Source: Branchiostoma floridae (lineage: Eukaryota > Chordata > Leptocardii > Amphioxiformes > Branchiostomatidae). From it: a DNA stretch of 64,000 bases. Numbering within the stretch: the stretch's first letter is position 1; the number at the start of each line of letters is the position of its first letter. A model generated the notes under the pieces. It saw only the letters and a program-made list of their open reading frames with translations. It made no database searches and had not been told where the DNA came from. Position numbers and translations under genes: made by a program. This document shows positions 31,756-59,345 of the stretch, piece after piece. Where the stretch lies: contig NC_049980.1 of the NCBI RefSeq assembly GCF_000003815.2, forward strand, positions 16,630,021 through 16,694,020, read 5' to 3'.

Positions 31756-33309
31756 ATGAAGGCCCTGAACTCATCTGAAGTAAAGGCTCAGGTCAAGACA
31801 GTCATCGATGACCTTGAGAATGTCCTTGGCGAGCTGCGGGAGGTGGTGACAGAACTGCGGGGTATCGTGGACCAAATTGACACCATCACGGCTCGGCTTG
31901 ACATCGATGGGGAGGGGGAACCGCAGGCGCAAGAGACAAATCCTTCCTCGAGCGCAAGAGAGCCCCCGAACGGCCGAGTTACGTCACCGCACCACTTCGA
32001 ACTGGGGCAAACAGAACATGCTGACCGTCGGGGGCAAACTCCGGGAGGCACGGCACACAACCAACATCTTCTCAATGGCGACTTGACTGCTGAACAAGAA
32101 CACCAGAACATTCATACCGCACAGGCATCTGCAATCCCAAACCACTCGCCTAACCCAGTTAACACACATGCACTTTCACAGACTACCACAATCCGCCAAA
32201 CTCAACATGGAAGCCTTCTCAGGCGCCATCGGGTTGGGGAAGACCACGTTATCTCACCTTCGGTCGTGCGAGCGCTGACACTGGGTAGAGGCATACCAAA
32301 CGGACACGTCAATACATACCAGCGAGGTTTCAGTGTGGACCAAGCCATTAGTCAGCGGGATAGACAGACTCACGCATCGACGCTTCCAAGGCAAAACCTC
32401 GGGCCTGGAGCTGCTGCATCGCTCAATGGTGATATCAGTGCGTCTCCCACGCGGTTTGGCACTTTCAGGGATGGATACAGCACCGGAAGCGGTCAGTCTC
32501 AAAGAAAGACGAAGCCCGCTCCTCCCCAACGAAGAAGCGCAACACTCGGTGACTACGCCGACTACATGACGTTACCGGGGCGAGCCTCGGGAGATAATAG
32601 TAGACAGGCTAGGAAAGAATCCTTTCGCAGCGCAAAATCCCAGAACCTGGGGCGGGAATTCGAAAGAAGACGGGAACGGTGTGACTCGGTGCCAGGGAGT
32701 GTTCTGAGAACTCACAGCACTAGCAGTGCCACAAGTACCAAAAAGGAAAAGAGGGTGGAGTTTAGGACAGACGACGTCGATGGTTCAGGCAGGGCAGAGT
32801 TGACACGACAACACAGTCTAAAACAGAGGGATTACGAGGCCATACAGAGAGAGCGTTACGCGGGAAGAGACGCGGGAAGGGAGACAGCGGTCAGAACAGA
32901 GAACCCCCGCACACGGTGGAAGACATGTCCACGGCCCATGTCTGTCCCGACAAGCTGGGTGCAGGACGAGGAGGGTAGCTGGCACAGAATTGCTCAGAAT
33001 TCTTTAGCCAGTGACTATGGCAGCCTAGAAAGCTTCCGGTCAGGTGGAAACTACAGCAGTATGGAAAGCTTCCGCTCCGAATCACCTGGGGTGGCGACCA
33101 AGACCATGGACAGCAGGCGGCCAGGCACCGCCCCAGGTAGAGAAGCTGCCCCACCTGGACCCAGTGCAGGAGTGGGCGGAGATCCCACTGCAACTTACGC
33201 CACCATCAACCGACAGGCAAGATCGCAGTATTCAACCGTCGCCTCTCCAAGTAAAGGTCAATCTCGACAGGGGGGAAAAGGAAAAGATATTCTGATGACA
33301 GAGCTGTGA
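31756..33309 (+). CDS. PRR16 (Largen)/INSYN1-family protein, 517 aa
   Basis: Residues 9-50 form an acidic heptad-like helix (VKAQVKTVIDDLENVLGEL and onward to DQIDTITARL). This closely matches the N-terminal helix I recall for vertebrate PRR16 (VLGDLKDVAKEL, then VDQIDTLTSDL) and INSYN1. A second family motif, basic-Glu-basic-Val-x-Phe, is at 331-336 (EKRVEF). Between and beyond these the chain is low-complexity, Ser/Gln/Arg-rich, with a duplicated Ser-x-Glu-Ser-Phe-Arg-Ser motif near 424-438. PRR16 is reported to promote cell size and INSYN1 to act at inhibitory synapses; which role applies here is unknown. The whole frame is in one exon, longer than the roughly 300-residue vertebrate proteins. 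A splice acceptor (TATTTTTCAG) ends at 31740, 15 bases before the ATG, so at least one upstream untranslated exon exists. The codon usage is much richer in G+C than the flanks. Confidence 0.82.
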   Translation: MKALNSSEVKAQVKTVIDDLENVLGELREVVTELRGIVDQIDTITARLDIDGEGEPQAQETNPSSSAREPPNGRVTSPHHFELGQTEHADRRGQTPGGTAHNQHLLNGDLTAEQEHQNIHTAQASAIPNHSPNPVNTHALSQTTTIRQTQHGSLLRRHRVGEDHVISPSVVRALTLGRGIPNGHVNTYQRGFSVDQAISQRDRQTHASTLPRQNLGPGAAASLNGDISASPTRFGTFRDGYSTGSGQSQRKTKPAPPQRRSATLGDYADYMTLPGRASGDNSRQARKESFRSAKSQNLGREFERRRERCDSVPGSVLRTHSTSSATSTKKEKRVEFRTDDVDGSGRAELTRQHSLKQRDYEAIQRERYAGRDAGRETAVRTENPRTRWKTCPRPMSVPTSWVQDEEGSWHRIAQNSLASDYGSLESFRSGGNYSSMESFRSESPGVATKTMDSRRPGTAPGREAAPPGPSAGVGGDPTATYATINRQARSQYSTVASPSKGQSRQGGKGKDILMTEL

Positions 33310-42989: not shown

Positions 42990-43982
42990 TTTACTACTTT
43001 GTTATATGGATCTGAAATTTGGAGCTAATTCAAAAGTCCTAAATTTTGTCCTACTGAAAGGGTGCACTTGAAATTTTGTAAACACTCACTTAATGTTCCG
43101 AAAACTGCATCTAACCTTGCTGTACTCGCTGAATTAGGGAGGTACCCTATCCAACTGGAAGCCTCTCTAAACGCCATCAAATATTTCATTAAAATTTAAC
43201 AAAATGTGTCAGCTGAGAGTCTGCAGGCAGACGCTCTCTTATATCAGCTTAATCTAGATTCATCAGGTACTAAATGTTGGGCATCTGGTGTTCGCAAAAC
43301 TTTGGAGGAGTGTGGTTACCCTTTTGTTTGGTAAGCCCGTAAGTCAACAGATCCAAACATATCCCATCTAATTTCTGCAATCCACCAACGACTGAAGGAT
43401 ATTTATTTCCAGAATTTTCTAACCAACATTCATAATGATAATAAAGGTTTACGTGCGAAAAACAAACTCCGAACATACAGACTACTGAAATCCATATACA
43501 ATGAAGAGCAGTATTTGAAAATTACAAACATTCGGCACAAAACTACCATTGCTAAACTAAGAATCAGTTGCCACCGACTGCGAATTGAATCAGGAAGGCA
43601 CAACCGCACTCCTCTAGAACAAAGAGTCTGCCAATTTTGTACCTCAAACATGGTAGAAGATGAAGTGCACTTCATTGTTGATTGCGATGTGTATGCCAAT
43701 GATAGAAATACTCTATTTAGCTATGTAGAAAGTAGATTCCCTCATTTTAGACACATGAGTAGCACTGACAAGTTAATATTTCTTATGCGTTTTGACAAAC
43801 CGACAATAGCGAAACCCATACAGTCCTACATTTTCACCATTACCAAGAAGCGAGAAGAAGCCGAACTTTCGTATGTTAGACTAGATTTGTGATACTTTTA
43901 TATGTATATATCCTGACTTGTTCTGACCTGTACTTAGCTCGGTTGGGCAAAATTGTACAATTAAAGTCTTCATTCATTCACT
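42990..43982 (+). pseudogene. Decayed non-LTR retrotransposon (LINE), 3' part
   Basis: Conceptual translation with frameshifts and stops gives the region just after a reverse transcriptase: LYGSEIW near 43003-43023, then LAELGRYPIQLEASLNAIKY near 43124-43185. A CCHC-like motif (C-x2-C-x9-H-x4-C) follows around 43628-43685, and the C-terminal frame ends at 43892. The order fits CR1/L2-like LINE ORF2. The untranslated tail ends with AATTAAAGTC and a short ATTC repeat (43968-43980), typical of LINE 3' ends. At least two in-frame stops (after IKYFIKI and after GYPFVW) show it is dead. The reverse transcriptase core is absent (5' truncation). Confidence 0.75.
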
Positions 43983-44236: not shown

Positions 44237-44242
44237 TTTATT
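44237..44242 (-). promoter_or_regulatory. Poly(A) signal, clusterin-like gene A
   Basis: AATAAA on the minus strand (TTTATT on the plus strand), 45 bases beyond the gene A stop codon. It is the only canonical signal close to the end of the frame. Confidence 0.7.
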
Positions 44243-44287
44243 GGGTGAGGAATGATGCTGAGTATCATCTCCAAATGATGATCCTGA

Positions 44288-47200
44288 TTAGATCTTTTTT
44301 GTGGTGGGGGCGGGGTGGAGAGCCTTGTAATGATCCAAAGCCTTCTGCGCGATCTCGCGCCCTGCCTGGGTCATGTCGAACATGGTGAGCGGGCTGTCCA
44401 GCGAGAAGGCGTAGGTCTCCCCGAACAGAGTGGCCGTCACCGTGGCGCTGGTGTAACCTCCGACCGTCGCGTCGAAGGAGCTTCCGTCCACCAGAACCTG
44501 GAAAGGACAAGCGCTCAACATGTTGATTTGTAGATTCGGGATAGTGTAACAACAACAAAAAAGTTACATGTACAAAATTGTATATTATGTTTTCTTTGTG
44601 GCAGGGGATACGTCAAATTCCATCTGTATTGTCGTTGTTTTTATGAGCAGGGCTAGCCACAGTAATAGCCACAGGGTAGTTGGACAACCCTTGCCATGAA
44701 CAGCCAAACCAGTAAATAGAATAAAAAAAGCTACACGACACAACACATCAGTTTCAGCTGCGCGACACCCTAGATCTACCTTCGCAATACCCCAGATCTA
44801 TCATCGCCACACCCCAGATATAGCTGCGTGACACCCTTGCTTGGCAAGCGCTAGCACATCCCTGCTTCAGGTCAATGAAATCCCAACGACAACCACCACC
44901 AGCTTTGGTACATGAATAATATACCTTCCATGTGATCTTACCTGGTTAATGGCATAGTTCTGGTTATCCGTGGGCATGGTGGTTACCCAGTAGTTCTGTT
45001 GCATTGAGCCTTGGTAGTCAGCCATGGCCGCCTGGAACGCGCTACAGTCTGGTGAAAGAAAACACATAACTGTCACATAAAAAGAAAATTGCCGAAGAAC
45101 CAAACTCGTTACGAATACTACGACTGACACGACACGAAAAATAAAAAAATTATGTACACTTTGCGCCAAAAGCACGGGCCATTGACACTGTTTAACTACT
45201 TTGCCAGCACTGCAAAGCGGCAACGATGATGATGATGATGATGTCACTAGTACGGACTACTTACACTGTTCCTCCAGGTACTTGGTGTCACAAACGTTTC
45301 CACAGGACGAGGCGTACAGCAGACAGGCGTTGCCACCCTCATTCTGGAGCTGAGAACAAGTTGGTTCACTGCGCACCTGGCGTTTGACGTGGTGCTGCAG
45401 AATGGCATTCCTCAGTCGACGGTCTGCATGGACACCATAATACAAAAATGTAAACACTTCCTTTCCGTACTTAACCCAATTTTCTTATCCCACAGTCCAA
45501 GACTCAATCAAGCCAATCCAGGCCGGCAGCACAACTCGGACACTTCACGAGTGGCGAATATCCGTGGCTGTACTAAAACATCTGTTTCTGCAACAATGTA
45601 TTGAAAAAAAGGGCATGAGCCGCCCTCGTGACGAATTCTTCTTCTAATGGGTCAGTTAGTGAAAAAATTCTAAATCTTGCTGTTCCAATGAGGCGCTAAT
45701 CAGAAAATCAAGACATATCAGACGTACTGAAAAGGCCGCCAAAAAGGTCTCCGATGCCTTGTATAGCGCCTCCGATGGTTCCGAAGACGCCGTCGACGAG
45801 AGCACCACCAACGTCCCCGATGCCACCGAGGATGCTGCCGCCAACACCGAGAACAGCCTCGCCCAACGAACCAGCAACGTCCTTTAGTACAACACAAAGT
45901 TGTTGATTGGTTATAACGTTAACCAGCAATGCAGGTGAGGGATATTGTTATATCCTCAATCTAGACGGTAACAGATTCCTCATTACTTAATCATCAGGCA
46001 TATTGATTGTCATCGAAGCAGCCTGTATCACACCTCGATGTAGACAACAAAGAAGTATGTTGGCCTTACGATAGGACACAACCGAACACAACTATTAGTA
46101 TTTTAATGCCAAGGCAAAAGCTAAGTAGTGTGAAACAGAAAAAAAACATCGGCGTACCGTAACTCCGTCCCAGATGCCTGTGCCTGCTTCGATAGCGTCT
46201 CCGCCAATTTGTCCGAACACGTTGCCGACCGTTTGAAATGTGTCCAAGACGTCGGTTCCCGCCTCTACAAAGAGGCTGCCCAGCTCATCGAGGTGGAAGA
46301 CATCGGCCACGAAGCCAGGTACGCCAGCGGCCACATTGAAGGCCGAAAAGAGTTGGTCGATCTGGCTGCTGAAGAAACCTTCCACCTGGAACAACGTGAA
46401 CACGGCTGTGGTGAGTGTGATGTCATGTTTAGAGAAGTCCTGTACACTTGAATGACAGTGCGTTTGACCGGCACCGGCCTCTATTTCTGCAAGCAACGTG
46501 TTTCGCTAGTAGTACCAATAGCTATATCCAAAAGTGTCTTTTACTGATTTGGTGGGTTTGAGTATATATATACAATGCAAAAATGTTGGAAGCATGGGAT
46601 GATACAACTCTACAATCAACACAAAATAGCTAAAACATTAAACCGTGGTCGATGAATGCAAGTCTACAACACTCTGACAGTGTACCACCCCTCCTTATCT
46701 AGCTGCGTGCCACACCCACCTGTTGGAGGAGGAAAGCCCACAGACCCGGGCTGCAACTCTCGGCCTTTTCCTGACATTTGGTCTCCACACAAGTCTTACA
46801 GGGGCCCTGAAGGTAGGTCTCGATTGTACTGGTGCATACGGCCTGTGTCTCGTTCACCTAGACGTTAACAAAGCGATCGTGAGAAATCAACTCAAAACGA
46901 GAAATTGAAGATCTTATACCTAAAGTTATGACATAATTAGAGTTTTTTTTTAATTCCTTGACAAAAGATGCCACACTCATGTCCATTTAATGCAGAAATG
47001 CAATTCTCTCAGCTGAACCGTTCCAACTATAATGTTATACATAAAGCGAAGAACAGATTAGCCTAGGGAGACGAGGCCTCGAGCTCAATGAAGCGGTCTT
47101 GCAACTTTATACACCGCCTTTCTTTATGTCACATATGTCTCTTACCAGTTTTGCGGCATCAACAAGCGTATTTCCCGCGGTCATGATTTCATCTTGAAGG

Positions 47201-47614
47201 AGACCAAGGCCAGCATCTCGGAGAACTGTAGGAAGACATTATTCTGTCACACAAGACATATTAGAGTATATAATATTCGGCAAGCTGAGAGAAACATTTT
47301 AGAGACGTTTTGGATTCCCTTGTAGGCTTCTATCTCTGATAATTCTCATTTGAAATGCAGAAGTAGTTTGGAAAACTTGACCAGGCACAGTTCATGTAGG
47401 CAGTGTGTGGTGTATTCAACCATTAGAGAGCTGAGCTCCTTTAAATCATCTTTAGATTCCTTATCCAATATATGCTCAGATTGTGCGGAAGTTTGTGTGG
47501 GTACTTACGCTTAATGTTGGAGTCCGGCAGCGATATGAGCCCGGCCTGTCTGCGGACGGAGTGCACCCCGAACACCGAGCACACCAGCAGGGTCAGAGCC
47601 AGTAACTTGAACAT
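44288..47614 (-). CDS. Clusterin-like secreted protein A, 393 aa, 8 coding exons
   Basis: Exons (minus): 47614-47509, 47225-47146, 46857-46720, 46385-46158, 45881-45728, 45423-45265, 45048-44942, 44497-44288. All introns are GT-AG and all phases join. Residues 1-20 are a signal peptide (MFKLLALTLLVCSVFGVHSV), followed by a dibasic RR-Gln site. Cysteines 70, 82, 85, 90 and 97 (C-x11-C-x2-C-x4-C-x6-C) form cluster 1. Exon 5 encodes a Gly/Asp-rich segment (IGDLFGGL). KRQVR at 249-253 precedes cluster 2, cysteines 258, 269, 276, 280 and 290. Residues 308-393 contain YWVTT, TLFGETYAF and EIAQKALDHYKALH. Human clusterin, as I recall it, has C-x10-C-x2-C-x4-C-x7-C, an R-x-x-R-Ser cut, a second five-Cys cluster and a VVVKLF...VAEKALQEYRKKH end. 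The likely role is a secreted chaperone or lipid-binding protein, by inference. N64 is a glycosylation sequon. Confidence 0.78.
44758..44836 (+). repeat. 22-bp tandem repeat, 3.6 copies
   Basis: Units of 22 bp begin CTGCGCGACACCCTAGATCT, CTTCGCAATACCCCAGATCT, CATCGCCACACCCCAGATAT and CTGCGTGACACCC. The array lies in the last intron of gene A and contains no splice signal. Confidence 0.8.
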
Positions 47615-47655
47615 CGTGCTTGCCAGTGGATGTGGCCGAACATTAGAGCACGACC

Positions 47656-47662
47656 TATTTAT
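47656..47662 (-). promoter_or_regulatory. TATA box of gene A
   Basis: ATAAATA on the minus strand, in the context GGCATAAATAGGTCG, 42 bases upstream of the ATG. This predicts a very short 5' leader. Confidence 0.6.
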
Positions 47663-47699
47663 GCCTTGCGTGGTGTCAAAGGTGAGCCTTTTGGTATTT

Positions 47700-48115
47700 G
47701 CACTGTGGGAGGAACAAACGTGCGTAAACCTTGGAGGTATGACTGATTAGTTAGTTATCGATAACTTTATTTAACCCTAGTTCTCGGGCGGTAGGGAACA
47801 TTGTCACCTGTTACCACACCCTCCACGCAATTCGCACTCATTCATACAAACACATTCCCTATTTTGGTTTTTGCAAAATACAGCATCGTATCGCATTTTT
47901 TTACAAAGAAATCGCCGATTCACCCGTCCTCTTTGAAATATTTACCATCATCGTCTTTTGAATGGTAAATTTTATAGTCAACATGCCCGGGGCACTCTGT
48001 TTATGCATTGGCATAAAGAGAAAGCCTCGCTCGACTTGTAGCAGAATTTTCAAGCAGCCACATACAATATATACGACAACCCGTCCGGTAGCAAGCCAGC
48101 TGAATTTTTTAGGTT
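47700..48115. other. Intergenic between gene A and repeat, nothing recognised
   Basis: Upstream flank of gene A. No exon, repeat or clear regulatory motif beyond the TATA box is visible. Confidence 0.4.
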
Positions 48116-48119
48116 AATT

Positions 48120-49171
48120 ACCTTCGACAAGAAGGTTATATTTGGGGTAGTGTCTGTATGTCTGTGTGTGTGTGTGTTTGTAGAAGATCAGCATAACTGG
48201 AGAACGCCTTAATGGATTGTCTTGATATGTGGTATGTGGGTAGATCTTGATGAAACCTCCAAACGATTAGATTTTAAGCTCCCTAGCGGCATGCTATGGT
48301 ACTGCAGCGGAACTTTCGGGTTTGATATCTCGCGTTCTGGACATGCTGCGGTGATGTTTTTGAGTGGTACCGTCTGGAGGCGAAAAGTAAGTGGTGAATC
48401 TTTGGGCCCCCTAGCGGGGAACTGCAGGAGCCGGTTTAGTTTCAGGCTTTGATGGAGAATAACTCAAGAAGGGATTAACGGATCAATGTGCTTTTTGGCA
48501 TGCAGATAGCTTAAGTGATGCTTATACAAATCAGAATCTACTTTGCATGATTATTGAATTTTATAAACCTATTCTGCTCCATTATAGGACTATTGCAACA
48601 TGTGGTATTTGTAGTTGAGCAAGAGAAAATGTTGATAGATAAATATCATGCAACAAAATACCTAGTTTGTATATTTAATGAGAAAATGCTATAATCACAC
48701 TGTGGTAAATGACTGGAATTCTTCCCTGGAAGATGTGTACAGAAGGACATCATTGAACATTAACTATGTAAATGAGGACCTCATTTGCATGAAATATCAG
48801 AAAATGCGATTAAAGCCTTCTTTCTGAACATAGATTGTGTACATCTGTTATTTGGGTGTACTTCATCCATGCATNNNNNNNNNNNNNNNNNNNNNNNNNN
48901 NNNNNNNNNNNNNNNNNNNNNNNNNNNNNNNNNNNNNNNNNNNNNNNNNNNNNNNNNNNNNNNNNNNNNNNNNNAGGTGTAATCATCACCTGTTGTACAA
49001 GTATAAAAAATCATTATGTTACTGAAACAACTATGTAGTTCATTTGACACATAGTCTTTAGGTAGCTGTAGGATTCTTGAGCAATGTATACCTTTGGTCA
49101 TGGTTTATTTTAAAGAAAGGATCTGTTTTCATTCAAGTTACATGCATTGCATACACTTTCATGGAGGTTTT
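48120..49171. mobile_element. About 1.05-kb interspersed repeat, contains gap
   Basis: The element starts near ACCTTCGACAAGAAGGTTAT, runs through a GTCTGTGTGTGTGTGTG tract (about 48160-48178) and GCATAACTGGAGAACGCC, and then CCTAGCGGCATGCTATGGTA. It ends near ACTTTCATGGAGGT. The order and the ends correspond to the element at 36271-37354 in the opposite orientation. TATGTAAATGAGGACCTCAT (about 48766-48785) is another hallmark I recall from this repeat. A 100-N gap interrupts it. The right edge abuts the 3' end of gene B. Confidence 0.5.
48875..48974. other. Assembly gap, 100 N
   Basis: Standard-size gap inside the repeat. The repeat itself probably caused the break. Confidence 0.99.
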
Positions 49172-49174
49172 ATT
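49169..49174 (-). promoter_or_regulatory. Candidate poly(A) signal of gene B
   Basis: AATAAA on the minus strand, 193 bases past the gene B stop codon, at the edge of the 48120-49171 repeat. If used, the transposon edge supplies the 3' end of the transcript. Confidence 0.45.
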
Positions 49175-49366
49175 TCGCGGGTGAATCATTAGTACAGTAA
49201 AAGCACACATCAGATATTGACGATGTTAAAATTAATTTGTTGTCACTGCGAGCACTCATGGAAGGTTGCAAATATGTGAGGTAGACGTGAGTAGCAAATT
49301 CATTTAGCTGGTGTGTCACGCCGAACGGCGGTTATACCGGCAATATAGATACAGATTTAAGCCAAT

Positions 49367-52300
49367 TTATATAATCTCACCAAACAGTCGCACTTTCACC
49401 GCCGCATTGGTATAAGAGCCAGCACTGTTCACGTTGTTGGTGTCCACCGCGATCTGGAAGGTAAACATGCCGGTATAGTTAAAGACCAACAATCAAATTT
49501 CAATTTATATCAGAACAATCCCTCGTTTATGGCAGTTCAGATGGTTTTCTTCTGTACAGGTCCAACAAGAATTGACAAAGAAGCAAAACATTACAGGTGA
49601 ACATCAGATATGCTCAACAGTATGTTCGGTATCTCCATAATAATTGCATCGTTGCCTCTTTATTAACGTTTTGTGAATAATGATCTGGCAAAATGATGTA
49701 GAAAGGTTCGTTATATACTTGTTGGATGATGAAGTCCTGGTTTTGAGGGACATTTGTTATCCAGCCATTCTGCTGTTGTGAGGTTTGGAGAGCGCTCACA
49801 GCAGAGTTGTAGGTCGGACAATCTGGGAGAAGATACACATGTATGGGTTACTACATTTTCTGGTCATTGTGTATCATACGATTCTGACAGAAAAAAATAT
49901 CACTTTACACAGTCATAGATAGTACTATCAAAACAAAGTGGACAAAACCTTGGTGGGTTGGAAAACACACAGCATGACATGTTTTCAGACAATGTCAGAA
50001 CGCCATATATTACAAACAAAAACAGCTGAATTTCAAGAATGCTCACATGCGCTTTGCAAATACGACACATCGCATGATGTGCGGCAAGCAGACGAGTCGG
50101 CATATTTCAGGCACGCCTGTTCACGCTGACTCTCCAGTTCGCTGCAGGTCGGATCCGAACGGCGAGCACGTGGTCGGACAGCTCTCTTCCTCCGTCCCCA
50201 TCCTCCTAAGTAAGTAAGGAAAATAAAGGTGACCATTGAGTAAAAAAAAAAAAAAAAGAACCCAACATTTTTGCAACCGTGACATCGTCGACTTCTCGGG
50301 GCAAGCTGCCGTGGACATGATAGTTTTGCCTATGTAAAATACCTACATTTGACATTTTACAGGCAGTTGTCATCATCCAATTTTCTTGTAAAGATATCAG
50401 CTAATTTTAGCATAGGTACAAGCAAATGTCTATGTTTTTACTTTTGAGTCCGAGCAGTGTTAGTCCTACCCGCATAAACACTGACGATGGCGTAAGAATA
50501 GTAAAAGGTACCCACATATTCAGATGAAAAAATGTTTATCCGTTTAAAGCGGGTATCTCACATGATTGCGGCGTCACTGTGTTCTATTATATACTTCTAA
50601 ATTGGATTTTTTGTTGCACTTGACTTCATAATGCCTTAATGGAAACAATATGCAAAAAGTTTTTTATCGATGAAATTCGTCGAGCGCTCTGTAGACGCTC
50701 AGCAGCTTCAGTGAAATACCCGCTTTTAAAGTGGTGTTAACCTTACCGCCAAAAACACCACCGATAGCGTCCCCGATACTGTCGATAGCACCTCCGATGG
50801 CGTCGCCGACATCGCTTATCAGGTTCCCTGCGGCGTCCACGACGTCACCAGCGGCGTTCAGAAGATCCTCGCCAGCGTCAACTATCACGTTAGCTGCACT
50901 CTGTCAAGGACGTACAAATTCAAAATCTCTTCATTTGAATCACGTGCGTTTAGTTGCGTACCCATAATATTGTAGTGATGAAAGAATTCAAGGGGAAAGC
51001 TTTTGCATGTTTGGCTTCATATCTACGTTATGAAATGTTGTCAGACACAAAAAAGGGAAGGGTAAGAAAGAGACACATGAAATCTTAGTATAGTATCTGG
51101 GAAATGTATTTCCATGTGACGAAGCCCATGAAACAAGTTGGTTTTCAGCAAAAATCATTAATATATCTGCATCTACGTGGTTATCTATCACTGGCTGATA
51201 TTCATTATCCCCCACCTGCACGCCTGACCAGACAGTTCCTGCCGCTTGATTGATGGCAGTGGACACCGAAGACAAGGCGCCGTCAGCAAAATCTTCCACA
51301 GCCGAGGCGACGTCTTCAACATGGAGGACGTCGTTCCAAACAAAACTGGCAGCATCATTGAACGCAGACTCCAGCTGATTACGGAAGGAAATACCATATA
51401 TATGATATATACCACTTACAATGGGGATTAGGGATGTTGCTGTAACATGTTTGCATCATTCTAGGATTACTTTTAAACGAGATGACATGTGCAAAGATGT
51501 CACAAGTCATGAAATTCACATATTTTACCACTAAGGAATTATGATACATGTACTTAATATGCAAACATATATGTGGAAAAACGCCTGCATGGACAGACAG
51601 ACAGACAAACAAACAAACAAAATATACATTCCTTTTTGATAAAGCTTTTGATTAACATTAACACTAACCATCTGACCGATAGCCTCCCACAGATCCGGTC
51701 GACAGGAGTCAGCCTTGTTCTTGCACTGTTGTCTCACACAGGAGGCACAGTTCGTCTGGAGTTTGGACGTAACTGTCTGCTCACAGCCTGGAAGAGCGGC
51801 CCTGGCAGCGTCGGATTTAGCCTTCAGGTCATTGTAGGCTGCTGTCATTTCATCCCGCAAGTAGGCAGCACCACTTGGCTGGAAAGCTGAGTAAAAGGCA
51901 GTTATGTTCATTTTGTTTGCATGTTTAGGATTGATACCCGATTTTATAGATTTCATACTTTTGTTTATTGGCGCATATAAAAGTTAGGATGAAAATAGAA
52001 TAAGTTGGTCAGTGATAGATATAAAAGAAAAAAATAAATATAGTCTTGGGATAATGTAAAATAGTATTCATAACTCCGTAGAGATCACCCTCTTGACTTG
52101 TGTGCATGCAATGATAGTGATTCTAACAAGGATGCAAAAGTGAAGTCAGTAACAGATCAAAACGTGTTTGGCTGGTAGAATTTGCCACGATGGTTGTTGC
52201 CTATTACTGATATCGTATGGATTAGATAACTTTCTTCTGTACTTGTTATCACCATATGCATGTATATAGATCAGTAAATTTAAGTGATACAGATTGCAAT

Positions 52301-53598
52301 GCGCAAAAATTGAAATTGCATCATACTGTGTCATTTGGTTGTATAATACCTAATTGTGCATTTACGTGCATATCTAAGATTGGCACAAAAACCTGGATAG
52401 GAGCACAGACAAACCTTCGACTGACTACCCGAAGCTAACAACAGTGAGAGTTACATGTAATGATATCGATACATACCAACCACAACCGAGGAGTGGAAGC
52501 TCTGGGTTGCACGCACTGCACGAGCCTTGTTGGACGAACCTTGTAGGCGCCAATACACAAAACAAGACGTAAGTCGTTTTTTCTTAAAGTCCTTGGCATG
52601 CAAGTTGTTGAATTATGCAGCTCCGAGCTTGAAATAATATCATAACGTGAAAATGGAAATGGCGCGCTCACAAAAAAGTACCAACCTTTCAGGGGACGGC
52701 GAAGTCGGCCGTGGCCTCCTGCTAGAACGGCGCCTGCCAACAGCACCAGCAGGAATGCCTGTCATTGAGAAGAAAACATTTGACTAGTAAGCAATATAAT
52801 TGCTTTCAATGCTTGGAAGGCTATATTGTGATGGTCGTTGAGGAATGTCGTCGTTTCAAGCGGCCTTTCCAAGGGCACAACATCGATGGCATATCAGGGA
52901 ATTCTAACCCAGAACTTCTGGGTTCTGGGCCAAACACCCTAACTGTTACGCCAAAGCGACACCACGTTTCATCCTATAGGGAACGCCAGGAAAGACCCAG
53001 GCAGCTTTGATCACAGCTCTAGCTTCTTTCTCACCTATCTTTTACCCACACCCACCTACCCAACCACCTAGCCTGTGTTGACACAATCTCTCGCTGGCTG
53101 GGGCAGCGGCGATTGTAGGGCCGGCCGCTAGGGGTGCGATTTTAGTCAGGCTACCCAGCCACGCACTAATGTTCAAAAGGTCGTCCCTGATTCTTAATTC
53201 AATGGACACTAATATAAGGTAGCATGCAAGTGAAACTATACAAACGACAACGGGTGGCCTAGGATTTTTAAAATTTTTTCTATCAGATAACTTACAAAGC
53301 TAAGTAACCAGAGACACTTCTTACAGTCATTGTCGGGTCCTAGTTCACTTATTTCAACCATGACGAAAACTATGTTTCTATCTACATGTATTAGATAATT
53401 TAAGCCACTTATCACTATCAAATAATGCAAAGCGAGGGGCATTTCAGTTTCTAAAGCTGCCAATCCCAACAATACCGAAGAGTAGACTACGACTTTCTCT
53501 ATGCAGGTTTACACTTAACTCGTTCGCTTTCAGGCATAGCTTTGTAATAACGTTACAGGTAATACAGATAAATTAGAAAAAGTCAATACCTTGTACAT
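49367..53598 (-). CDS. Clusterin-like secreted protein B, 341 aa, shortened C-terminus
   Basis: Exons (minus): 53598-53590, 52758-52686, 52539-52477, 51886-51669, 51374-51216, 50900-50747, 50205-50047, 49822-49719, 49453-49367. All introns are GT-AG and all phases join. A 9-base exon (Met-Tyr-Lys) starts the signal peptide, which continues AFLLVLLAGAVLAGG. Cluster 1 is cysteines 83, 95, 98, 103 and 110 (C-x11-C-x2-C-x4-C-x6-C), followed by RPDLW. A Gly/Asp-rich segment (GDAIGGAIDSIGDAIGG) precedes a furin-type RRKR at 230-233. Cluster 2 is cysteines 246, 257, 266, 270 and 280. The frame stops after VRLFGEII, about 43 residues before the paralogue ends, so the A-x-K-A-L-x-x-Y helix is missing. 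GTGAGA inside the last codons is also a good splice donor. One exon (51886-51669) fuses what are two exons in A and C. Confidence 0.72.
52840..52965 (-). mobile_element. tRNA-derived SINE, 5' part, in gene B intron
   Basis: Read on the minus strand: GTCGCTTTGGCGTAACAGTT, then AGGGTGTTTGGCCCAGAACC, a B-box-like GGGTTAGAATTCC, and GATGTTGTGCCCTTGGAAAG. It is the same family as 40531-40790, with a better preserved head and a truncated tail (ending near GACGACATTCCTC). It lies in the first intron of gene B, in the sense orientation. Confidence 0.65.
53069..53153. mobile_element. Possible 85-bp MITE
   Basis: TAGCCTG at the left and CAGGCTA at the right delimit a CpG-rich 85-bp segment in the first intron of gene B. 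The terminal repeat is only 7 bp and no clear target duplication is visible, so the call is tentative. Confidence 0.3.
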
Positions 53599-53684
53599 CG
53601 TGCTCGTCTTGTAACTGGTGTGTATCAGTCAAGCACGAAGTTTGAAGATAGACCTATGCTAATCCTTTGCGAGGTTGCTGCGTG

Positions 53685-53691
53685 CTTTTAT
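53685..53691 (-). promoter_or_regulatory. TATA box of gene B
   Basis: ATAAAAG on the minus strand, in the context CAGCATAAAAGCACG, 87 bases upstream of the ATG. This predicts a leader of about 55-60 bases. Confidence 0.55.
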
Positions 53692-54600
53692 GCTGTTAGG
53701 TTGTATCTGTTTGTCCTGCGTTAAGGCACATAGGGATGTTCAACAGGATGTCGGAACATTGCTTATCAACAAGGATTGCCTCAATTTGCCGTCTCATCCG
53801 ATTCAGTCAAACAAGCTTGTGTTGACAATTTGCAAGCAATGATAGATAAGAGTAGTGACTTTTACTGATCGTGGGCATTCTTGGACTTGTTTTGAATAAA
53901 ATAATTGAGTAAAATCATTAACACTAAATACAATATTTTTACATTCGAGATGTGATCTAACATCATAGGGAAATCCAGTACTTTACGTGTTAGAGTGGGC
54001 CGGGAGGGACAGAGAGGCAGAAGTTTGCTGACAATGTCAATGGGGCATTAGGAACAAAATGGATGTTTCGTAGTATCCAACATGGGCAAATCATAGTGTT
54101 CCAAGATGATGAAGCATAATGTTCCACGATGAGACGAACAGTTTCCAATTTCGGCGTGTTAGTATGCAAGATTGGGAAAGCTTCTTAGACAGTGTTTTGA
54201 ACAGTTGAGTTTTTCAATTTTGCTATTCTGAAAGTATTACTAGTGTTATATATCAGTGGTTTGAAAAACATATACGTCGATTTGGTTCTTAAAAATGTGC
54301 ATTTTCACGCATTGGCCAGCGTTATTAAGGACTCTTGCTTTCGGAATAGAGTGTAGATGAATTTTCGTTACCTTTTTAAACTACAACGCTGTAATTGCTA
54401 GAACGAGGCGTTACTCGAAGTCCAAAACATTCAAAATACAAAAAGGAAAACAGTTCATCAACAACGCCCGACTTATATTGCTAGATGATAATATGATGAA
54501 GTAACCTAGCTACATAACTTATCTTAGCTACGTGTAGGCAGGTTATTTTTTCAGAGCTAAGCATTTTGTGCACGTGCGCTCAGCTTTACATTGCTTTTTT

Positions 54601-54778
54601 GATGTAGGTGCTACATGTAGGTACATGTAGACCTGTGACCCAGAAAAAAATTTCACATTTTTGACCTAGCAGGAACCTCTTTTCAAAGAGGTTGGCGGGG
54701 AAGATTGTGATTCTATCATATCTCCCGTGTTCTGTCTGCACTTCCCTCCAGGTGATCACAATCTTTCCCACCTACATC
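54601..54778. repeat. Nested inverted repeats between genes B and C
   Basis: GATGTAGGTG at 54601-54610 is inverted as CACCTACATC at 54769-54778. Inside, GGGAAGATTGTGAT (54698-54711) pairs with ATCACAATCTTTCCC (54755-54769) with one bulge. AACCTCTTT-TCA-AAAGAGGTT-like arms near 54674-54693 form a further hairpin. It is probably a MITE inserted in the shared upstream region of the divergent pair B and C. A regulatory role is possible but not shown. Confidence 0.6.
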
Positions 54779-54984
54779 TGCTTGGAGAGTGATATAGACC
54801 CATGAGCATGCACCTCTCATAACTTAAACCGAGCGATCGAGCAAAAATGCGGCATTTGATGAGTGTTTGTTCCCTTTGCAAATAAAAAAGGCATTAATGT
54901 GAGAACCCTACACATGTCGATCTAATGGCATGCAAATGCAGTCACTGTGTCAATTCGGACGACACCAGGCGCCTGTTCCGTGGG

Positions 54985-54994
54985 TTTTAAAAAG
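54985..54994 (+). promoter_or_regulatory. TATA-like element of gene C
   Basis: TTTTAAAAAG, followed about 25 bases later by an initiator-like CTTCAGA. If transcription starts there, the ATG at 55017 would sit at the very 5' end of the transcript. This favours the internal ATG at 55044, which also aligns with the gene A start. Confidence 0.5.
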
Positions 54995-55043
54995 CGTGTA
55001 AGAAGGACCTCTTCAGATGCACTCGCTGCCCATCGTGCCAGCA

Positions 55044-58000
55044 ATGTGGAAGCTGCTGTGCCTGACGATCCTGGTGTGCGCGGTGTCCGGGGGACCCCAG
55101 GTCCGCAGACAGGCTGGTTATTTTCCTATCCAGGGACCCAGTCTTCAGGGTAAGGTTGCCTTGAGGTGTTTGCAATATCATGCGCAGGTGGCCATCCAAA
55201 CTTTTGTAGCTTCTTAAATAATGATCTCGCGTGCGTTCTGTCAACGGCCTTTTTGTCAGCGTAGGATTTTGATTCATCTTTCACTCTTTTTATGGTGAAG
55301 TTGCACCAGTCGACGTCTTTTTTATCTCTGCCTTTGCCATTAGCTAGGTTCTGGATGCTGTCTTAGTTTGTTGAGACATACACGTACAAATATACCATTT
55401 GTCACCACAGTGCTACGCCAAGCCAGTCTTCCCATCCTCCAAGACGCCATCAAAGTCGCCGGAGAAAGTCTCGTCTCTGCCGCCGAACAGGTGGGGCTGT
55501 AATGTTAATGGCAGTGGAATAGAAAATATGTTTGTGCTATGCATATTTGACAGTACTACTAGGACATTTTTTGTGCTATGCATATTTGACGGTACGTAGG
55601 ACACGTAGATTTTCTAGACTTTGCTCTATTTCTCGGGATAACCCATATGACTAGGCAGTTGTAATGTTGACTTGAAAAGCTAATTTTTCAAACAGAAATT
55701 ATGCACATTCTAAAATATCATATCGTTGCTTGGACACATCCTCAAATATCATTACAAAGCCAGAGAAACGTATACTTCAACGTCATCCCTAAGCAACAAG
55801 ATGTGTCGATGGGCTGAATTAAGAACGTAAAGAAACAGCTTAAGAGTCTGAACAAGATCACCCAAAAAATTATGATCCTCATTTGCGAAACCTTTCTTTG
55901 CTCCTTTACAATACTTAGGTGAATACAACAAAGCCAGACTGCATCACCATCATAGAGAGCCAGATCGGAGGTGCATGCAAGGCATGTGTGGAGTCACGAT
56001 GTAAGAGTAAAGCAGACAGCTGTGCTCCGAACCTGTGGGAAGCCATCGCCCAGAAGGTAATGTTTTCTTATTTAGGGTTGCTCAACACTTATTTTGACAA
56101 TGTGATTATGAAAGTCTCATCATTAAACCAAGAAATCAGAGCTTGTGTGTGTATATTACAGTACCAAGGACAGTACTAACCAAGAAGTGCAAAAAGAAAC
56201 AAAACAGACAGAAAGCATTATAACATTAAAAGAGTCCCCTGCAATGTCAAGCAATAAATGAATAAAACCATGTTTACCATAGAGCAAATCACATTATGAT
56301 CACCCTCCAATGTTGACCCATCATAATATTACATGACATGAAAATTTTCTAATTTTTAGGTAGAGGAGTTTTTCACAGATAAGATTCCAGAGTTGTTCAA
56401 CTCAGCTGTGGATGCTGTCCTTGATGCTCCCGATGCCATCATTGATGCCCTTCACCTGAACGAATTGGATGACTTCATACTTGACATTGGGACTGAGCTT
56501 CTGAACACTGTCTTGGATGTTGGCAATGTGTTTGCGAACATTGGTGATGAGGCGCTAGATACACTTGGCAACCTTGGGACCAGCATTTGGGATGGCATAG
56601 AGGTACCTCTAAATATCCCATTTATTTCACAGCATATTAGCCCTATACATGTACATCAAGATTTAACCACATTCAATACAAAATATTTCCATGATGTCGA
56701 TATACCTCACCCATCCTAACTGCACTATGAACTGTATGAAAGGGGTGCTGTAAAAAGAGGAAATACAGCAACTGTTGCCACTAACAGACCATTGGTATGG
56801 TCCTATTTTGTACTGTAATCTACATTGAGAAAAGGTAATGCCTCTATGTAATGTATACATCCTGAATATGAGCAAAATGAACATAGCAAACTTTAACCCT
56901 GTATCATTGGACAGGATGTAGGTGGCTTCCTGGGAGATACAGTCCTGGATGTAGGTAACTTCCTGGTGGATGGCATTGGAGACATTGGAAACATTGCTGT
57001 CGACCTGGGAGACTCCATAGTGGGAGCCATTGGGGACCTTGGAGATCTCTTTGGTGGCCTGTTGGGTGAGTCGTAACATACACATGAGTCAATGTATAAC
57101 GTTGGTTCACCTTTATCCACATGGTAACCTATATCCGTCGTACATAAAATAGGTTATTTGGGGATTGTTAAGTCGATAGAAGGTAGTTTCACAATGCAAT
57201 ATCTTGAAAATTTTAACATTTGAAACCCACGTCGTTGACCTAAAATCTCTAAATACTCAATATTTTAAAACAACGAATTTAGGTTACCCATGGATTAAGG
57301 TGAACTGTTGTTACATGCCTGCTTTTTCATGAAAATGCAAATCAACAAGCAAGGAAGAATCAACTGCTACAGACCCAATCAGCAGGGAAAATTGAGAGCA
57401 AAATAGACAAATATTATAAAATGACAAAGGCAACGATCTGCATATTCATGCCCCATGCCGAATAAACTATGCCATTTGTTTGTAGGCATCAGGTTCATGC
57501 CTCCTCGTAATTTAGAGCTCGCTGACAACTCGGCCGATCTAAATTCTTGATTTGTAAAGGGAGCTTAAGGAATTACACCATGTTGTATTCAATATGTAAC
57601 ACTATGTGAACATTTTGTCTTTTATTACATGCATATCAATTTCATGGCCTTGTTGAAGGGAACTTCCAAGATATTTGTGCATATCTGTGCCTAGTTAACA
57701 GTCTAAAACAAATACACTGTATAACGTTACATTTTGTTCTTCATTCTTTGATTAACAAAATTCACATATCCTGTCCCATGGAGGAGCTATTAACTGACAA
57801 ATAGAGCTCTACAAATGGGTAGTTTTGAAGCTATAACGTTACTTACATGTCTCAGACAATATCCCTTTTAAGTGTCTGAATGTTTGAATGTACATGTGTG
57901 TAGCTCCAAGCTGTCCATACTTTAGAGATGTGTTGAAGACTGTACCACCGTACTGTTTCCATACAGGCAAGAAGAAGAGGGATGTTGTTTTGGCATATTA

Positions 58001-59311
58001 CGTGAAGCGCCAAGTGAGACGCCGACGTGAGGCCCAAAGTCAAGTGCGTAGTGAGCCATCTTGTTCTCAGCTGCAGAATGAAGGAGGCAGTGCCTGTATG
58101 GGCTTCATGTCATCCTGTGGTAGCATCTGTGACTCCACATGGCTGCAGCAGCAATGTAAGGACCCACATGTACTGACATGTTGTATATTATTACAGCATG
58201 GAAGTTAATGTTCTCTAGTTGCTATTACTTAAAAATTGATTTTATGGAAATTAAACTTTTCTCATTATCCATCTTAATATTCTTATGCCATTCGGCCATG
58301 TAAGATTGCTGACAAAATAACAAGTTGTAGGATTGTGCAGTCTGTATTTGATGAGGTAACCTCTTCTGACTGCCTCTAATATTTCTTCACTTTGGTGTCA
58401 TGAAGCAACAGTCCTTCTGATAAACAATCATGTACTTACTCTTCTATCGGCAGACTGTACCACATTCAACACGGCTCTAAATGTGTACCAAGCAGCTCTT
58501 CAGGACCACTACTGGGTCACCACGATCCCTGCTCAGAATCAGGACTTTGTCATAGACCAGGTATGGTGTAGCTGTTGCTTCTGAAGTGAACACTAACAAT
58601 CCTGTAGGCCTTCCAAAGAACATTTGACAAACATAATAATCATAACAGTTCACATAATAATCATAATTACTTACCTTCTATGATGATATACACCTTAATG
58701 GGAGCTTCCTCCTATTTGCTAAGTCAATACAGAATATGAAATAAACGCTGCACTATCCTTCAATAATACCACTAATTGAGAGATTCAATGAGTCAACTGA
58801 AGGTAAAATACTTCAGCAAAAATATTGGGTCATCACAATAATGCTACACATTTGATGATCGAAAACTATACAAAACACTGCAAACAGTAATGCATGAGGG
58901 CATTAGTCAATATACAATTTGTTTTTATTTCAAACAAATTCAATATTTTTCCTGCAAAACATATGTTGAGCATCACCTTCTTTCTCTACAAGTCAAAGCT
59001 CATAAAAGAAAGAAATCCGCCACCTGCAAATGTAAAAGGGAACTCTGCATTCCGATCAATTTCTCATCATATCTTTCTTACTGCAGCTGATGGTGGATGG
59101 AACCTCCATGGACTTCACCACTGGAGCTTACAGCCGTGTTGACGTGACAGTTACAATGTTCGGGGAGACCTACACCTTCCCCTTGGACAACAGCCTCAGC
59201 CCGTTTAACCTGGCCCCTGCTGGACCAGAGATAGCCCAGAAAGCACTTGACCACTACAAGGCTAACCACCCTCCTCCTTCCACTAAGGTGTACGCATATT
59301 CACACAGTTAG
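55044..59311 (+). CDS. Clusterin-like secreted protein C, 412 aa, 8 coding exons
   Basis: Exons: 55044-55149, 55411-55490, 55919-56056, 56360-56602, 56915-57065, 57967-58155, 58454-58560, 59087-59311. Exon 1-3 lengths (106, 80, 138) and exon 7 length (107) are identical to gene A, and all phases agree. The signal peptide is MWKLLCLTILVCAVSGG, followed by VRRQA. Cluster 1 is cysteines 70, 82, 85, 90 and 97. Exon 4 encodes an acidic amphipathic region (IIDALHLNELDDF). Exon 5 is Gly/Asp-rich (GDLGDLFGGL). KKKR, VKRQVRRRR and QVRS at 241-268 are convertase-like sites. Cluster 2 is cysteines 272, 283, 290, 294 and 304. The C-terminus carries YWVTT, TMFGETYTF and EIAQKALDHYKANH. The architecture is that of clusterin, as for gene A. 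An alternative start at 55017 would add nine residues before the signal peptide. N64 is a glycosylation sequon shared with A. Confidence 0.78.
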
Positions 59312-59339
59312 TCGAGGTGCAGGATCTTGTGCTCCTGCA

Positions 59340-59345
59340 AATAAA
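59340..59345 (+). promoter_or_regulatory. Poly(A) signal, gene C
   Basis: AATAAA 28 bases after the gene C stop codon, giving a very short 3' untranslated region. It faces the POLG 3' end only about 125 bases away. Confidence 0.75.

Follow-up and report, generated by a model that had tools for sequence, protein, structure and literature searches.

We analysed a window of 64,000 nucleotides, the whole stretch presented here, from the genome of the lancelet Branchiostoma floridae (C2:16630021-16694020, C2 being the contig that carries the gene cluster described below; the genome comprises 513.4 Mb in 431 contigs). The window holds three neighbouring genes, A, B, and C, at 16.67-16.69 Mb on C2, whose predicted products share several features with clusterin. 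Gene models were built by hand from splice consensus and reading frame. Gene A (minus strand, 47614..44288) has eight exons and encodes 393 amino acids, gene B (minus strand, 52758..49367) has seven exons found and encodes 317, and gene C (plus strand, 55044..59311) has eight exons and encodes 412. All of the exons listed below come from these models, with further evidence given in brackets; a slash within a motif marks a candidate cleavage point, and coordinates are window positions.

47509..47614, minus strand: gene A exon 1, predicted signal peptide and VRRQAG (also an exon match in the genome search)
47146..47225, minus strand: gene A exon 2
46720..46857, minus strand: gene A exon 3, five-cysteine cluster 1 (Pfam Clusterin at residues 57-122, E 1.5e-4, under cut-off)
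46158..46385, minus strand: gene A exon 4, acidic amphipathic segment (composition and helical moment)
45728..45881, minus strand: gene A exon 5, Gly-rich acidic amphipathic segment (composition and helical moment)
45265..45423, minus strand: gene A exon 6, basic sites RRLR and RQVR/S, cluster 2 cysteines 1-4
44942..45048, minus strand: gene A exon 7, cluster 2 cysteine 5, YWV...NYAINQ
44288..44497, minus strand: gene A exon 8, predicted beta/helix module of the C-terminus, stop, then AATAAA (single-exon fold)
52686..52758, minus strand: gene B exon with predicted signal peptide (ATG exon upstream not found)
51669..51886, minus strand: gene B cluster-1 exon, equivalents of exons 2 and 3 fused (compared with human cluster 1, 9/2000 shuffles score as high)
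51216..51374, minus strand: gene B acidic amphipathic segment, first of two exons
50747..50900, minus strand: gene B acidic amphipathic segment, second of two exons
50047..50205, minus strand: gene B exon with sites RRKR and RARR/S, cluster 2 cysteines 1-4
49719..49822, minus strand: gene B exon with cluster 2 cysteine 5
49367..49453, minus strand: gene B last exon found, ending LFGEII* or splicing onward into or past the gap
55044..55149, plus strand: gene C exon 1, predicted signal peptide
55411..55490, plus strand: gene C exon 2
55919..56056, plus strand: gene C exon 3, five-cysteine cluster 1 (Pfam Clusterin at residues 61-118, E 0.034, under cut-off)
56360..56602, plus strand: gene C exon 4, acidic amphipathic segment
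56915..57065, plus strand: gene C exon 5, acidic amphipathic segment
57967..58155, plus strand: gene C exon 6, sites KKKR and RRRR/E, cluster 2 cysteines 1-4
58454..58560, plus strand: gene C exon 7, cluster 2 cysteine 5, YWVTT...FVIDQ
59087..59311, plus strand: gene C exon 8, predicted beta/helix module of the C-terminus, stop, then AATAAA

GT-AG borders were present in 20/20 introns of the three models, and nearly all intron positions were common to A, B, and C. The intron phases were 1,0,0,0,1,1,0 in both A and C and 1,0,0,1,1,0 in B, which has one intron fewer owing to its fused cluster-1 exon. The Tyr that precedes the fifth cysteine of cluster 2 is encoded across a phase-1 junction, which shows that the splicing proposed in the first-pass annotation of this DNA was correct. 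The proteins were 51% identical between A and C and 37% between A and B. Estimates of nonsynonymous (dN) and synonymous (dS) divergence by the Nei–Gojobori method (NG86) were 0.38 and 1.98 for A/C (dN/dS of about 0.2, with dS near-saturated), 0.67 and 3.54 for A/B, and 0.67 with saturated dS for C/B, a pattern that fits coding genes rather than open frames arising by chance. When the A protein was compared with its own genome, 17 exon matches were obtained up to E 10, all within window positions 44291-59287, that is, in A, B, and C. No fourth copy was found in the genome with this query, for which the best candidates alone were scored and very distant copies could escape.

The model of gene B ends with LFGEII*, a point beyond which A and C run on for about 45 residues, and no ATG exon was found upstream. 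A tblastn search with the heads and tails of A and C over window positions 47651-55040 returned only short, weak matches. These observations would fit a decaying copy, which would leave A and C as the only working genes. However, the introns of B are GT-AG, its model contains no internal stop, and all ten cluster cysteines are retained. Moreover, a 100-N assembly gap at 48875-48974, downstream of the gene, may hide its last exon, and a GT after LFG makes further splicing into or past the gap possible. We hold decay of B to be plausible, if somewhat short of probable.

Each of the three proteins possesses two five-cysteine clusters. The spacing of cluster 1 is identical in all of them (C-x11-C-x2-C-x4-C-x6-C), while A and C have C-x10-C-x6-C-x3-C-x9-C as cluster 2, from which B differs by x8 in place of x6. 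The predicted signal peptides contain one extra cysteine in A, two in C, and none in B. Two basic sites lie ahead of cluster 2 in every protein (RRLR/N and RQVR/S in A; RRKR/A and RARR/S in B; KKKR/D and RRRR/E in C), and R-x-x-R sites, candidates for furin-type cleavage, occur in the inter-cluster interval of all three. The candidate cut nearest to cluster 2 is 4 residues before it in A (RQVR/S) and B (RARR/S) and 11 residues before it in C (RRRR/E), and the further sites (RRLR in A, KKKR in C, RRKR in B) are up to 27 residues upstream. The termini of A and C read FGETYxF...IAQKALDHYKxxH. In the first-pass annotation, three paralogous genes were described that share these cysteine clusters, have basic sites ahead of cluster 2, and carry, in A and C, the IAQKALDHYKxxH segment; the hand models, the common clusters, and the near-identical intron positions bear this out. 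The annotation had also given each protein a signal peptide; the hydrophobic starts of A and C look signal-peptide-like by eye, and B has a hydrophobic stretch.

The linker between cluster 1 and the basic sites is 127 residues long in A, 132 in C, and 103 in B. It is rich in Gly and Ala and contains no Arg, Tyr, or Cys and at most one Lys (in C). The net charge of the linker is -16 (A), -27 (C), and -17 (B), and its grand average of hydropathy (GRAVY) is 0.75, 0.54, and 0.52, respectively. In each protein, the helical moment exceeded that of 300/300 shuffles, with a best angle of 100 degrees. By this pattern, the linker is a predicted acidic amphipathic helical segment, closer to an apolipoprotein than to the tails of human clusterin.

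Human clusterin (CLU, or apolipoprotein J; PDB 7zet and 7zeu; PF01093) is likewise a secreted precursor with two five-cysteine clusters. According to the excerpts of the literature on which this and the following citations draw, its beta and alpha chains are joined by five disulfides and separated by the cut of a furin-like protease, and the two disordered hydrophobic tails resulting from the cut carry chaperone activity (PMC12527946). The gaps between cysteines are 10,2,4,7 and 9,6,2,7 in human clusterin and 11,2,4,6 and 10,6,3,9 in A and C, and every gap in A, B, and C is within 2 of the human one. A basic site lies between the clusters in both (RQVR/S in A, RIVR/S in human clusterin), and the C-terminal motif (V/I)A(E/Q)KAL..Y+..H is common to human clusterin and proteins A and C.

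The lancelet proteins also differ from human clusterin. In A, some 17 residues separate cluster 2 from the (N/Y)WV motif, against about 53 in the human protein, and the distance from the signal peptide to cluster 1 is about 45-50 residues in the lancelet proteins versus 79. By counted lengths, the stretches that hold helices alpha2 and alpha10 in the human protein (PMC12527946) are much shorter in the lancelet proteins; spacers of this length leave room for a short coiled coil at most. The basic sites are 4-27 residues before cluster 2 in the lancelet proteins, whereas in human clusterin the distance is 57. The lancelet linker is acidic and Gly/Ala-rich, in contrast to residues 204-238 of the human protein, where Phe, Pro, Arg, Ser, and His abound. 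N-glycosylation sequons number 0-1 per lancelet protein versus six in human clusterin.

The properties of the linker also bear on what the proteins might do. If they are true clusterin homologues, the amphipathic segment, instead of serving as a chaperone tail, could act mainly on membranes or lipid, either in lipid carriage or as a membrane-active peptide that is released. The helical moment, the GRAVY of 0.52-0.75, and the net charge of -16 to -27 would suit such a role, as would the basic sites flanking the end of the linker and the fact that human clusterin is itself an apolipoprotein (PMC12527946). The strong negative charge, however, disfavours a classical cationic antimicrobial peptide. 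We consider this account rather unlikely, and we find the evidence evenly poised on whether A, B, and C have any chaperone or lipid-binding (apolipoprotein) role at all.

The kinship with clusterin was assessed by several sequence comparisons. In a Pfam-A scan covering 24736 models, Clusterin ranked first for A (21.3 bits, E 1.5e-4) and for C (13.6 bits, E 0.034), with cluster 1 of the two proteins matched at nearly equal profile positions (60-123 and 64-120). When eight fragments were scanned, Clusterin was again obtained for the cluster-1 pieces of A (20.1 bits) and C (14.0 bits). HHalign comparison of half-profiles with human clusterin, the template being a single sequence, yielded P 5e-4 for the N-terminal half and P 7.7e-3 for the C-terminal half; in global mode, the N-terminal half reached P 1.7e-4. 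The default alignment of the C-terminal half spanned only 16 residues (IAQKALDHYKALHP on VAEKALQEYRKKHR), and a forced full-length alignment was collinear, the WV, VTxTLFGE, and IAQKAL stretches following one another as in the human protein. When the human halves were shuffled, the real score was reached in 3/500 (N-terminal) and 1/500 (C-terminal) cases with cysteines fixed, and in 1/500 and 2/500 cases with cysteines free. We also ran pairwise Smith–Waterman comparisons with human clusterin, counting how many of 2000 cysteine-preserving shuffles reached the real score: nine did so for cluster 1 of B, and three (A) and 14 (C) for the C-terminus. Finally, the fold predicted for exon 8 of A alone (strands 9-11, 14-23, and 26-35, helix 43-59; mean predicted local distance difference test (pLDDT) score 62.6) had the element order expected of the clusterin alpha/beta domain; beyond this order, we take the model, which covers an incomplete domain, as evidence for neither side.

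A number of results from the same comparisons weigh against this kinship. Both A and C scored under the curated Pfam cut-off of 23.6 bits, B had no Clusterin match, and Clusterin was absent from the other six fragments, including every C-terminal one. The whole-protein HHalign comparison gave P 0.0036 with a probability of 9% against the single-sequence template, the probabilities for the halves were low (31% N-terminal, 5% C-terminal), and the C-terminal half fell to P 0.45 in global mode. The pairwise comparisons were unconvincing for cluster 1 of A (120/2000) and C (401/2000) and for the C-terminus of B (92/2000). Cluster 2 was at chance with cysteines fixed (1313, 1208, and 948 of 2000 shuffles for A, C, and B, respectively); the pairwise signal thus resides in cluster 1 and the C-terminus, and in cluster 2 it consists of the cysteines only. 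When the PDB, which contains clusterin, was searched by hmmsearch with a profile of the three proteins, nothing was returned up to E 10. Foldseek gave no match at E 0.001 for the exon 8 model (pLDDT 63, incomplete domain), and clusterin was not among the best 50 of its 126 matches. Human clusterin as a query found nothing in this genome up to E 10. A search of the genome with the Pfam Clusterin family gave zero matches, even at this locus, and since the family search is blind even here, the empty genome answers, including that to the human clusterin query, weigh little.

The chromosomal position of the cluster was compared with the surroundings of CLU and of CLUL1, the second vertebrate clusterin paralogue. 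Human CLU is located at 8:27.60 Mb, with CCDC25 (27.73), ESCO2 (27.77), and ELP3 (28.09) nearby (PMC9169259), and in 18p11.3 the gene order places CLUL1 between CETN1 and TYMS and puts THOC1 two positions beyond (PMC8943926). All five tested neighbours shared C2 with the lancelet cluster, at chromosome level only: ELP3 (11.36 Mb), THOC1 (21.10 Mb), TYMS (29.81 Mb), ESCO (30.82 Mb), and, by protein query, CCDC25 (30.80 Mb). The likeness to CLUL1 is one of position, through TYMS and THOC1. Orthologues were identified by matches at a single place at E 0.001 (0.01 for CCDC25). C2 accounts for 35.1 of 513.4 Mb, or 6.8% of the genome, and control genes were found off it (DHFR on C3, an NFACT-R_1 gene on C1, and green fluorescent protein (GFP) genes on C3, C4, C14, and C17). 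The C1 gene, found via PF05670 (NFACT-R_1), had been a candidate for CCDC25 and was rejected, as CCDC25 matches it poorly (best E 0.12); we assume that it resembles NEMF. The CCDC25 and ESCO matches are about 14 kb apart (C2:30803595-30820130) and in human the two genes are adjacent, which makes them a small conserved block.

The linkage has limits that count against the clusterin interpretation as well. It extends to the whole chromosome only, the tested neighbours being 4-14 Mb from the cluster, and the five neighbours represent two human blocks, hence not five independent events. A cautious chance of linkage is therefore 0.068 squared, or about 0.005, rising to 0.07 if the two blocks were one ancestral block.

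We base the claim of kinship on the combination of position with two weak but separate sequence signals. By sequence, the homology is weak and is best called probable; because the cut-off was not reached, the trio is presented here as clusterin homologues that are not filed as members of the Pfam-defined Clusterin family. Convergence could instead have given clusterin-like cysteine spacing and a clusterin-like short end motif to a family confined to the lancelet, whose secreted, apolipoprotein-like proteins are amphipathic and bridged by cysteines. This rival would account for Pfam scores under the cut-off, low HHalign probabilities, the empty PDB search, and a cluster 2 similarity limited to its cysteines, but is improbable given that Clusterin was the best Pfam model for two of the three proteins, that two separate halves outscored nearly all cysteine-preserving shuffles, and that every tested CLU or CLUL1 neighbour was linked. 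We consider it likely that A, B, and C are divergent homologues of clusterin, stemming from a lineage that branched off ahead of the split of vertebrate CLU and CLUL1 and multiplied locally to three.

The first-pass annotation had inferred clusterin relatives and a local expansion outside vertebrates. The former is supported by the top Pfam match of A and C, the half-wise shuffle tests, and the linkage, and the latter by the confirmed three-gene cluster with no other copy found among the best candidates scored. Among the checks it had proposed, Pfam ranked Clusterin first for A and C, both under the cut-off, and had no match for B; profile–profile comparison combined low P values for the halves with probabilities of 5-31%; and structure prediction, for exon 8 of A only, reproduced the element order and found no Foldseek match at E 0.001.

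If the three genes are clusterin homologues, each would give rise to a secreted precursor in which the two five-cysteine clusters pair to form one compact domain held by disulfides. Cleavage by a furin-like protease between the clusters, near cluster 2, would then produce two disulfide-linked chains, with nearly the whole acidic linker staying at the end of the first chain. This linker of 103-132 residues would take over the work of the two hydrophobic human tails, holding unfolded proteins as well as lipid in body fluid. Disulfide pairing and cleavage are inferred here from the arrangement of cysteines and basic sites; in count and order, the cysteines would permit five antiparallel interchain disulfides. 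Most likely, the disulfide domain and the C-terminal module have been kept, the coiled coil has been shortened, and the tails have been replaced by the acidic amphipathic segment. More tentatively, and with slightly less than even confidence, we propose that clusterin arose before vertebrates as a small disulfide and alpha/beta protein with an acidic amphipathic, apolipoprotein-like working part, that vertebrates gained the long coiled coil and chaperone tails rich in Phe, Pro, and Arg, and that the lancelet trio keeps the older form.

Should the homology be true, clusterin is older than vertebrates, and a pre-vertebrate homologue would date it before the parting of CLU and CLUL1 and reveal its ancestral parts. 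The very different composition of the lancelet segment would also serve as a natural test of the tail chemistry that a holdase needs. In the excerpts of a 2025 structure paper, clusterin is described as a conserved vertebrate glycoprotein, and a representative alignment of ten species, within a larger set of 242 sequences, runs from human to ghost shark (PMC12527946). We found no report of an invertebrate clusterin in the titles and abstract beginnings of the literature searched, a scope that left subscription papers and sequence-database annotations outside; sequence databases may already name these genes. Five papers that came up (PMC9892467, PMC5489563, PMC12313776, PMC12939704, and PMC3899998) were, in the parts available, off topic for invertebrate clusterin, and the word ‘clusterin’ in PMC3899998 was an artefact of a missing space.

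Two further open frames were observed in the window, both on the plus strand. The frame at 31756-33306 (517 codons) lies in a GC-richer stretch and matched nothing in Pfam at E 0.1. Its start resembles, we presume, INSYN1/PRR16 proteins. The frame at 43335-43889 (185 codons) had a weak, unrelated Pfam match only and is presumably the end of a reverse transcriptase frame of the long interspersed nuclear element (LINE) type.

Large GFP families are a mark of lancelets. A lancelet GFP query produced 72 matches to exons with E values up to 10 and identities up to 88%, which marks the genome as a lancelet's and led us to reject a mollusc origin. The Pfam GFP family search missed the GFP exon arrays, which indicates that family search loses short exons. 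Arrays of fluorescent-protein exons were located at C4:24569428-24647499 and C17:14828601-14925231, with fewer such exons on C3 and C14.

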